A DNA stretch of 64,000 bases from Schlesneria paludicola DSM 18645 (GTDB taxonomy: Bacteria > Planctomycetota > Planctomycetia > Planctomycetales > Planctomycetaceae), in the NCBI GenBank assembly GCA_945862235.1, contig CAMAYU010000007.1, forward strand, positions 1 through 64,000, in the 5' to 3' direction. The notes below the pieces were generated by a model that saw only the letters and a list, made by a program, of their open reading frames with translations, was not told the DNA's origin and did not search any database. Of the stretch, positions 41,695 to 45,161 are shown in pieces. A program made the position numbers and the translations under genes. Position 1 is the first letter of the stretch; each line of letters opens with the position of its first letter.

Positions 41695-42372
41695 ATGAAA
41701 CCGCTATTCCAGACCATCGTGCGTACATCGTTCGCGGCCGGACTGAGCTTGCTCGCGTGTGCGGGTGTCTACGCTCAGGACGACTCCGAGGGAATCGTTC
41801 GCATCAGCAAGCCGAAGACCGCCGCCGTGATGACACAGCAGGTGAGTCCCGCATCGTTTGGCCACCATCAAGGGACGGTGGTGCAGGAGAACTGCAACGC
41901 TCAGGGTGGCGGAAGTTGCCAGTCGGGCAACGGTTCGTGTCCGTCCCCATTCCGCGAGGACTGGCGAACTGCGGATTGGAACGGCGACTATCGGGGATCG
42001 ACATTGCATATGCGGACTCAGGGGCACAGCCTTGCGATGGAGGAACGCTGGTGCAATCGATTTGGTCATCAGCCGGGCATGTACTACCACGATGAATCTG
42101 GTCAGGCGATGGTCGATTACTTCCGCTGCAAGTTCAAATACTTCATCCCCACAGGAGCGGGTGGAGCGGGGGTTCCGATTGTCGGCAAGTATGGTCGCGT
42201 CTATCCGCAAGACCCGCATTACTTCGATCAGCGTGATGGCCAAGTTTGGGCGGCTCAAGGTTACGGCGCTCCGATGGCCGTGCCGCTCGCGCCGGTTGTC
42301 GGCCACACCTACAACTATGGCTGGGGCATTCCTTCCAGCCGCCTGACGCCCATTTCGCACCCGGCTTATTGA
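41695..42372 (+). CDS. Secreted hypothetical protein (EGIVRI family)
   Basis: MKPLFQTIVRTSFAAGLSLLACAGVYAQDDSEGIVRISKPK; GGGSCQSGNGSC. Confidence 0.75.
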   Translation: MKPLFQTIVRTSFAAGLSLLACAGVYAQDDSEGIVRISKPKTAAVMTQQVSPASFGHHQGTVVQENCNAQGGGSCQSGNGSCPSPFREDWRTADWNGDYRGSTLHMRTQGHSLAMEERWCNRFGHQPGMYYHDESGQAMVDYFRCKFKYFIPTGAGGAGVPIVGKYGRVYPQDPHYFDQRDGQVWAAQGYGAPMAVPLAPVVGHTYNYGWGIPSSRLTPISHPAY

Positions 42373-42591: not shown

Positions 42592-43362
42592 ATGAACTCC
42601 CTGAAACTGAACTGGCTGGCTGCAGTTGCGATGTTGGTGGCTCCCGCCGTGGTTCCGATGGCTCAAGCTCAAGACACGAGTGCGCCAGGTATCGTCCGAA
42701 TCACAGACAGCAAGCCGCGGTTGACGGCTCAGCCCGCCTCGTTCCACGGTCATCGACACACGGCTGTTTACGGTGATTCGGGAAGCTGCCCCACCGGAGA
42801 ATGCCAGAACGGGAACTGCCAAACCGGTCACGGTTGCTTCGCCGAGCGGTACTGCGGCAAGAACTCGCCCGATCACGGCTATTCGCCACCGGCGAAGTAC
42901 CCGCTGCACCGACGCGGAGTGCAATACACGAGCAACTTTCCGAACCAGTGGTACGGATTACCAGGCAGTGAGTTGGCCGGTGGTTATCCGATGGTCTATC
43001 AAGCGACCGACACGACTCAGCTCGGCTTCTACTATCAGCACGTTCCTTACTGGCAGCCGAACCGCAACATGATGCCGCAGCGACCGGTACCGGCGCAGTG
43101 GAACATTGTCGCTCCCCCCTACAACTTGAACCTCTTTGCCGGTCAAGGGGGGTGTCCGGCCAACGGATACAGCGGCAACGGAAACTGTCCAGTACAACCC
43201 CAACAGGGAGTCCCCGTTCAACAGGGCGTTCCTCAACCGGTTGAGACCCCGAACGCTGTGCCGATGCAGAATGCTCCCGCCCCGGCCGCCGGGCTTCCGC
43301 CATCACCGCGTGAAATTCAGAACTCCGCCGAGAGCGACCACATTCGCCGTGCGGCCTTCTAA
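42592..43362 (+). CDS. Secreted hypothetical protein, paralogue-like to 41695-42372
   Basis: MNSLKLNWLAAVAMLVAPAVVPMAQAQDTSAPGIVRITDSKPRL; Cys/Gly-rich GSCPTGECQNGNCQTGHGC. Confidence 0.75.
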   Translation: MNSLKLNWLAAVAMLVAPAVVPMAQAQDTSAPGIVRITDSKPRLTAQPASFHGHRHTAVYGDSGSCPTGECQNGNCQTGHGCFAERYCGKNSPDHGYSPPAKYPLHRRGVQYTSNFPNQWYGLPGSELAGGYPMVYQATDTTQLGFYYQHVPYWQPNRNMMPQRPVPAQWNIVAPPYNLNLFAGQGGCPANGYSGNGNCPVQPQQGVPVQQGVPQPVETPNAVPMQNAPAPAAGLPPSPREIQNSAESDHIRRAAF

Positions 43363-43553: not shown

Positions 43554-45161
43554 ATGATCCCGATTGTTGCGACGTATCGGCTGACGTGTGCTGCCGACGA
43601 AGTCGATCGTTTGAGTCGCGACATCGCGCTGGAGCAGACGGTTGAAATCCCCGAGTCACTCCTGATTTGTGATCGGCTGCGCGAGACCGTTGTTGGGCGA
43701 GTCGCGTGGATTACTCCGGTGCCGGACGTGTCGAATCAGTTCGACGCGGGGATCGAATACCCCGTCGATCTTGCGGCGGGTGGACTCGGCTCGCTGCTAA
43801 ATCTGGTCTACGGCAACATCTCGCTCAAACGTTGCACTCGCTTGATGGACGTGAGTCTGCCCGAGTCGTTGCTCAGCCAGTTTCGCGGACCCAATCAGGG
43901 CGTGACGGGACTGCGGCGGATGCTCGGAGTGTTCGGACGACCGTTGTTAGCGACGGCACTCAAGCCGCGAGGCTCCTCGCCGGAAGAGTTGGCGGCGTCC
44001 GCCAAGAAATTTGCGGCGGGCGGCGGTGATGTCGTGAAGGACGATCACAATCTGATCGACGCACGCTTCGATGACTTTCGGCGGCGGATCGAACTTTGTC
44101 AGCAGGCCGTTCTTTCAGGGAACCAAGCTTCGGGGCGAACGTGCCTCTACTTTCCAAATCTTGCCGGTCCCGCCAGCGAACTGGAACGTCGCGCCCGATT
44201 CTTGGTCGATCTGGGAGTGAAGGGCGTATTGATCGCGCCACTGATCGCCGGACTCGATCAGGTGCGACATCTGGCGGAGACCTTTCCGCTGATGTTTCTC
44301 GCTCATCCGACTTTCTCAGGCGCGTACTTTCACGATGCGAGCCATGGGATTGAACCGGGATTGTTGCTCGGAACGTTCTTTCGATTGGCGGGCTGTGACG
44401 CCACGATCTACCCGAACCTGGGCGGCCGCTTCTCGTTCTCGGCCGATGAATGCAGACATATTGCGGCTCGCGTCCTCGAACCGCTGGGACACCTAGCTCC
44501 CGCATGGCCCGCTCCGGCGGGAGGCATGTCGTTCAATAACATCGCTCAAATGGCCAGCGAGTCCGGTGCGGATGCGATGTTCCTGATCGGCGGCGCGTTG
44601 CTGGCGGACTCGACCGATTTGCGAGTCAGCACCGCCCGGTTCCAGTCGCGAATCGCGGAGTTGTTCCCGGCCTGTTCGTTCACGTCCAACGCGCTGGCGG
44701 AGTCGGGTTTGAAGTCGAGCGGTGAGTTCGTGTCCGCGTGCGAGTTGCCTGCGTCGGCATTGAAGACGCCGTTGCTGGAACACCTGCGTCACAGCGGTGA
44801 CTTCCGCTGGGAGGGCCGCCCACCGGTCGCCTACAAGATCAGCAGCGAGCTGCCGTTTCGGGAGGTCACCCGAACGGAACTGATCGGCACTGCGGGTGAA
44901 CAGTCGGAGTTCGATCTACGCTACTTCGAGATCGCACCAGGAGGCCATTCCAGCCTCGAACGGCACAACCACACGCACGTCATCATCGTCGCACGCGGTA
45001 CCGGAGTGTTGCTCAGCGGCGAGTCCCGACTCACGTTGAGCCAGTTCGATGTCGCTTACGTCCCACCGCAGCAGGTTCACCAATTGCGGAATGAATCGCC
45101 CGAACCGTTCGGCTTCTTCTGCATCGTCGATCACGACCGTGACCGGCCGATGGCTCCGTAG
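43554..45161 (+). CDS. RuBisCO-like protein (form IV type) fused to C-terminal cupin domain
   Basis: RLP: LLATALKPRGSSPEELAASAKKFAAGGGDVVKDDHNLID, FLAHPTFSGAYF, WPAPAGGMSFNNIAQM, DAMFLIGGALL; cupin: IAPGGHSSLERHNHTHVIIVARGTGVLL...YVPPQQVHQLRN. Confidence 0.88.
   Translation: MIPIVATYRLTCAADEVDRLSRDIALEQTVEIPESLLICDRLRETVVGRVAWITPVPDVSNQFDAGIEYPVDLAAGGLGSLLNLVYGNISLKRCTRLMDVSLPESLLSQFRGPNQGVTGLRRMLGVFGRPLLATALKPRGSSPEELAASAKKFAAGGGDVVKDDHNLIDARFDDFRRRIELCQQAVLSGNQASGRTCLYFPNLAGPASELERRARFLVDLGVKGVLIAPLIAGLDQVRHLAETFPLMFLAHPTFSGAYFHDASHGIEPGLLLGTFFRLAGCDATIYPNLGGRFSFSADECRHIAARVLEPLGHLAPAWPAPAGGMSFNNIAQMASESGADAMFLIGGALLADSTDLRVSTARFQSRIAELFPACSFTSNALAESGLKSSGEFVSACELPASALKTPLLEHLRHSGDFRWEGRPPVAYKISSELPFREVTRTELIGTAGEQSEFDLRYFEIAPGGHSSLERHNHTHVIIVARGTGVLLSGESRLTLSQFDVAYVPPQQVHQLRNESPEPFGFFCIVDHDRDRPMAP

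Follow-up and report, generated by a model that had tools for sequence, protein, structure and literature searches.

Within the window, the whole stretch of 64,000 nucleotides analysed here, a single gene encodes a RuBisCO-like protein (RLP) joined through a linker to a cupin, and we predict, with a probability of roughly 0.84, that its product performs two consecutive steps of the MTA-isoprenoid shunt (rubrum-type methionine salvage). In this pathway, MtnA would supply 5-methylthioribulose-1-phosphate (MTRu-1-P), the RLP half would convert it to 1-methylthioxylulose-5-phosphate (MTXu-5-P), and the cupin half, relying on a metal held by His residues and on a catalytic Cys523, would strip the methylthio group from MTXu-5-P to give 1-deoxyxylulose-5-phosphate (DXP). 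The Cys-S-SCH3 intermediate on Cys523 would then be resolved, yielding methanethiol. Less certain than this two-step assignment is the suggestion that Cys396, on the disordered linker, may take over resolution of the methyl disulfide in bacteria lacking glutathione. The substrates, the reactions, the methyl disulfide intermediate and any channelling are all predicted features.

Oxygen-independent methionine salvage is experimentally known from purple bacteria, and the assignment would extend it to planctomycetes and several other phyla, with methanethiol release predicted there. That the two halves are fused is a strong and independent indication that RLP and cupin handle one substrate in consecutive steps. 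Methionine-salvage enzyme fusions are known from Tetrahymena (MtnBD and MtnAK; PMC6302742, PMC3698126), but those consist of classical-pathway enzymes and include neither an RLP nor a cupin methylsulfurylase. Our search of the open literature found no earlier description of an RLP-cupin fusion, planctomycetes included, and a prior mention is possible. The fusion joins two known consecutive enzymes; new here is the conserved cysteine motif of the linker, which the earlier note had overlooked, a candidate answer to how the methylsulfurylase is reduced without glutathione, in which a protein cysteine would replace the small thiol.

Gene and domain organisation

An earlier note on this DNA, made from its letters, had described one 535-aa open reading frame with an RLP followed by a cupin. 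Translation bears this out, with a 535-codon frame free of internal stops at exactly the interval given in the first row of Table 1. Pfam places RuBisCO_large at residues 117-283 (2.5e-19, 70 bits versus a cut-off of 30), so that the N-terminal part, for which the earlier note had allowed that no such match might appear, has a significant one, and Cupin_2 at residues 457-524 (3e-12, above the gathering score). The AlphaFold2 model, built from a 39-row alignment, shows a disordered linker between two domains predicted with confidence (mean pLDDT 90).

Table 1. Features of the fusion gene, with positions in the window.
Feature	Position	Strand	Evidence
RLP-linker-cupin fusion, 535 aa; predicted bifunctional MTRu-1-P 1,3-isomerase / MTXu-5-P methylsulfurylase	43554..45161	+	Pfam, homology, trees, AlphaFold2, fold search
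RLP domain, residues 1-374	43554..44675	+	Active-site alignment, AlphaFold2, fold match 3qfw
Disordered linker, residues 375-406, pLDDT < 50	44676..44771	+	AlphaFold2
Conserved linker motif S394-A-C396-E-L-P399; C396 is a hypothetical resolving thiol	44733..44750	+	Linker comparison
Cupin domain, residues 412-535	44787..45158	+	Pfam, PDB matches, alignment, AlphaFold2

The gene is apparently solitary, with 192 bases to the nearest upstream gene on the + strand, and no consensus sigma-70 promoter was found near it. It is flanked by genes for an unannotated small protein, a helix-turn-helix protein, an OmpA protein and an HD-domain protein. Two adjoining small proteins at window 41695-42372 and 42592-43362 (+) have similar starts and Gly/Cys/Asn-rich stretches and are likely tandem paralogues; the one at 42592-43362 has no Pfam match.

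Identity and active site of the RLP half

The RLP half has 3qfw as both its top PDB sequence match (E 3.9e-65) and its top match in the fold search (TM 0.94 on the target). We take this entry to be RLP1 (RPA2169) of R. palustris, because RLP2, the other RLP of that organism, is a separate entry (2qyg). Knockout and metabolite data identified RLP1 as an MTRu-1-P 1,3-isomerase, while knockouts and metabolite tracing identified the adjoining cupin as an MTXu-5-P methylsulfurylase (PMC5893883). RLP1 is the nearest characterised protein in sequence and fold, but it is not fused, its cupin neighbour being encoded by a gene of its own (RPA2170), and its identity to the RLP half is only 37%.

The catalytic-type residues of the RLP half are K137, K162, D163, D164, H165, H251, R292 and P321AGG324. 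In the alignment, the RuBisCO positions K175 and K201/D203 correspond to K137 and to K162/D163/D164, and the positions K177 and E204 to R139 and H165, all as the earlier note had read them. The same note had seen no K334 loop; this reading has to be revised, as the K334 position aligns with Arg292 inside a conserved PNxGGRF segment. Residues K137, K162, D163, D164, H251 and R292 are common to the window RLP, RLP1 and the cupin-linked RLPs. At the E204 position the aligned loci have His, but five gammaproteobacterial fusions have Gln; one search pattern included KDDH, so that His was partly preselected among the loci, while the window RLP and RLP1 carry KDDH independently. The overall signature (KPx, KDDH, AHP, PNxGGRF, PxGG) is shared with RLP1 and differs from that of MtnW (KDDE, PSxYGSV) and of RuBisCO. 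In a tree built with a quick method, the window RLP groups with RLP1 and the cupin-linked RLPs, apart from MtnW and RuBisCO (support 91).

Models of other families fall far below their cut-offs. For MtnW, the DK-MTP-1-P enolase, TIGR03332 gives 132.1 of the 513.6 bits needed, and KDDH stands in place of KDDE; for OiaX, the 3-oxo-isoapionate-4-phosphate decarboxylase, NF042437 gives 70 bits against a cut-off of 700; and RuBisCO forms I-III reach 132.9 of 438 and 119 of 497 bits, with Arg139, His165 and Arg292 at K177/E204/K334. The form IV class and the planctomycete origin assumed in the earlier note hold, and the sequence strongly suggests that the RLP half is a form IV RLP of the DeepYkr type with a predicted MTRu-1-P 1,3-isomerase activity. 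Other RLP types also occur in the class (L015 and L152), namely a 515-aa RLP with IKEDED and a 404-aa MtnW-like RLP with KDDE.

Identity and active site of the cupin half

The best PDB matches of the cupin half are 3ibm, Rru_A2000 (3jzv, 3.4e-26) and 3kgz, which we take to be the R. palustris cupin, each at 1e-24 or below; DddK follows at 1e-8. The homology to Rru_A2000 spans residues 4-124 of the 124-aa cupin query, and Rru_A2000 and 3kgz align with the cupin end to end, including His471, His473, His475, His509 and Cys523. These five residues, the last within GFFC, and Arg456 are invariant across 25 fused cupins, 14 separate cupins and three solved relatives, in line with the earlier note's view of HNHTH and VHQLRN as a competent metal site. 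Y427, K428 and R440 fail solely in L051, whose frame looks damaged. Cys523 is absent from DddK, and its counterpart is the sole cysteine in the aligned part of Rru_A2000. In work attributed to Warlick et al. 2012, the active-site Cys is said to attack the methylthio sulphur and to take the methylthio group as a methyl disulfide. Rru_A2000 is the cupin of the RLP/cupin pair Rru_A1998/Rru_A2000 of R. rubrum (PMC4958253). Together, homology and conserved residues argue strongly for a predicted MTXu-5-P methylsulfurylase.

Fused and separate cupins also differ from each other. Most separate cupins have an extended C-terminal tail of the LRxDPxIAAFIR type, which the fused ones lack, whereas the fused cupins have F519, nearly always E442 and usually the Cys motif in the preceding linker.

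Distribution and evolution of the fusion

The fusion, which the earlier note had thought might prove absent from close relatives, recurs without internal stops in four further members of the genus, at 68-69% identity, and, at 61% identity, in a family member whose genome is a single contig. Both halves lie in one frame in 17 of 398 genomes of the class, the host included and all within its family, and fusions occur in at least four further phyla; the fusion is no assembly error. The distribution is patchy, since only 5 of the 15 genomes of the genus have the fusion.

The RLP half was used to scan 85,462 species genomes; this gave 268 relatives, and a cupin profile was applied to the best 80. 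Among these best 80 of 268, 24 loci are fused (the window being additional) and 14 have a separate cupin gene adjoining the RLP, the two genes often overlapping or nearly so; at the remaining loci there is no cupin nearby or a contig end interrupts. The fused loci, mostly from metagenome assemblies, include Planctomycetota, Nitrospirota, Hydrogenedentota, Fibrobacterota and Gammaproteobacteria. Extra N-terminal domains in gammaproteobacterial fusions (frames of up to 830 aa) look, by eye, like non-coding read-through upstream of the start. A metagenome-assembled genome titled Klebsiella pneumoniae (L094) has an adjoining RLP and cupin pair, and its name may be a mislabel.

In the RLP tree every fusion falls into one group of 39 rows (support 92, SH-aLRT only), beside 12 RLP-only rows and two separate pairs, and RLP1 lies outside this group, beside separate RLP/cupin pairs. 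The fused state changes five times on this tree, and the starred branches force two of the changes. In the cupin tree, one branch with 100/100 support divides fused from separate cupins. On these trees, which are unrooted, the simplest reading, short of proof, is one fusion event followed by losses and transfers. Long-branch planctomycete RLPs in the fusion group (L052, L054-L056, L063, L065, L067, L089) have no cupin nearby, which may reflect cupin loss or a changed function.

Linker cysteine motif and small-thiol synthesis genes

The linkers are variable in sequence and in length (62-101 residues in untrimmed rows, counted between the GG motif of the RLP and the YK of the cupin), and 22 of 25 contain [SAGPT]C[DE], mostly as SACELP. 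Cys-Glu is their nearly invariant core, and the flanking E-L-P is conserved too. Shuffled linkers contained the motif in 1.2 cases on average and in 6 at most (2000 trials) versus the 22 observed, a comparison in which the motif was defined on the sequences counted. The fusions are related by descent, and the count therefore shows conservation, not independent gain. Two further fusions outside the defining set also have the motif. Additionally, six planctomycete genomes with no RLP detected (L007, L008, L147-L150) encode a standalone methylsulfurylase-type cupin with, by eye, a comparable C[DE] segment at its N- or C-terminus; because such cupins occur without a detected RLP, the cupin may act on other substrates as well. 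No such segment was seen, again by eye, in 13 separate R. rubrum-type cupins.

The thiol of R. rubrum is glutathione (PMC4334135), and a survey found gshA-B confined to Cyanobacteria, Proteobacteria, eukaryotes and a single actinobacterium (PMC6282198), and for these reasons we scored GshB and then BshC. Fusions with the motif have GshB in 1 of 17 genomes (L053) and BshC in 2 of 17 (L027, L038). GshB is present in all three motif-less fusions (the lineage L041/46/47) and in 8 of 13 separate RLP/cupin pairs, with BshC in 4 of the other 5. Taking the known genes for making glutathione or bacillithiol together, 14 of 17 motif genomes have none and 15 of 16 motif-less ones have some (3/14 versus 15/1, Fisher p 1.3e-5, with species treated as independent though related); BshC was scored after the GshB result had been seen, and a gene missing from a draft genome says little. 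Independent pairs number only three, too few for significance to be reachable, and usually two to three of them point in the predicted direction, with none against. The host has no GshB over the cut-off, and glutathione is therefore probably unavailable to it. On this pattern we propose, as a hypothesis, that C396 may be a built-in resolving thiol.

Alternative explanations

Tentatively, the fusion may be self-sufficient in stripping the methylthio group: Cys396 would swing to the cupin, attack the Cys523 methyl disulfide and free methanethiol, and thioredoxin would reduce the internal disulfide. If this were true, the MTA-isoprenoid shunt would be possible without glutathione or bacillithiol, and the lack of the motif in fusions of one glutathione-making gammaproteobacterial lineage would be explained. 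We give about even odds to an arrangement with the same two activities in which the linker Cys motif serves for docking, structure or redox switching or as a recognition peptide for thioredoxin, and the cupin is resolved by thioredoxin or a different small thiol. The motif is disordered in the AlphaFold prediction, its placement being of low confidence in both models, motif-bearing fusions with GshB or BshC exist, and conservation of E-L-P is needless for a bare resolving thiol, all of which suits such an arrangement; the nearly invariant Cys-Glu, the terminal position of the motif on standalone cupins of the same type and its lack in the GshB-bearing fused lineage fit it less well.

Other departures concern the substrate. 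It is improbable that the substrate of the fusion is some other 5-substituted or 5-deoxy ribulose-1-phosphate, such as one derived from 5'-deoxyadenosine or a different SAM by-product, with 1,3-isomerisation by the RLP and an unknown elimination by the cupin. Planctomycete genomes in which no RLP was detected do have such cupins, and an identity to RLP1 of 37% would allow some drift, but the cupin keeps the methylsulfurylase Cys and His cluster and, by our own reasoning, a 5-deoxy substrate would give DXP straight from the RLP and leave nothing for the cupin to do. The earlier note had proposed an RLP enolisation or decarboxylation coupled to a cupin isomerase, epimerase or sensor on one sugar-acid phosphate; consecutive steps survive in outline, but the sugar-acid phosphate is unsupported (OiaX, 70 versus 700 bits), and so is the role given to the cupin, whose nearest solved relatives include methylsulfurylases. 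An RLP working as an enolase (MtnW type) or decarboxylase (OiaX type), in combination with a cupin that does an unrelated step or acts as a sensor, is very hard to credit: the generic RuBisCO_large match and the sub-cut-off matches of MtnW models would accommodate it, but those models stop at 132 of 513.6 bits, the active-site signature is different, the genome has no MtnD and the cupin is methylsulfurylase-like.

Metabolic context

The host has mtnA over the cut-off, as do 51 of the 59 genomes searched, so that this gene does not mark fusion bearers in particular. The neighbourhood comparison located neither mtnA nor an MTAP gene next to any of the fusions, and it found no recurring operon. 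The MTAP search returned PNP-type proteins only, all below the MTAP cut-off, and these are candidates for the MTA-cleaving enzyme. Classical methionine salvage was rejected for the host, where no ARD/MtnD was found and MtnB matches stay below the cut-off, and two Cys/Met-metabolism PLP enzymes are below the OAH sulfhydrylase cut-off. Replacement of Dxs by the fusion was rejected, with dxs over the cut-off in all 59 relatives, host included. Given this context, the fusion would serve MTA clean-up and sulphur recovery and would not be the main source of DXP. A 942-aa open frame with an OAH-sulfhydrylase-like domain (G000:C70; L139, L141) is possibly another methionine-metabolism fusion.

An extra PNP-family gene of the VTN type (L125 on G000:C11, L128-L131) is present in 5/5 genus members with the fusion and 0/10 without it, a co-occurrence that is likely due to clade inheritance. 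The other PNP/MTAP-type copy of the host, of a more widely shared kind, has VTD. Asp at this position is the MTAP-like state, and the extra copy is therefore not the better MTAP candidate.

Further, L079, L082, L064 and about 17-20 cupin-free RLP loci (within L048-L100) form cassettes with a split transketolase, often together with mtnA and an mtnK-like kinase. The N half of the transketolase is Transketolase_N, and the C half comprises Transket_pyr and Transketolase_C. These cassettes possibly represent a different salvage branch, with transketolase acting after the RLP.
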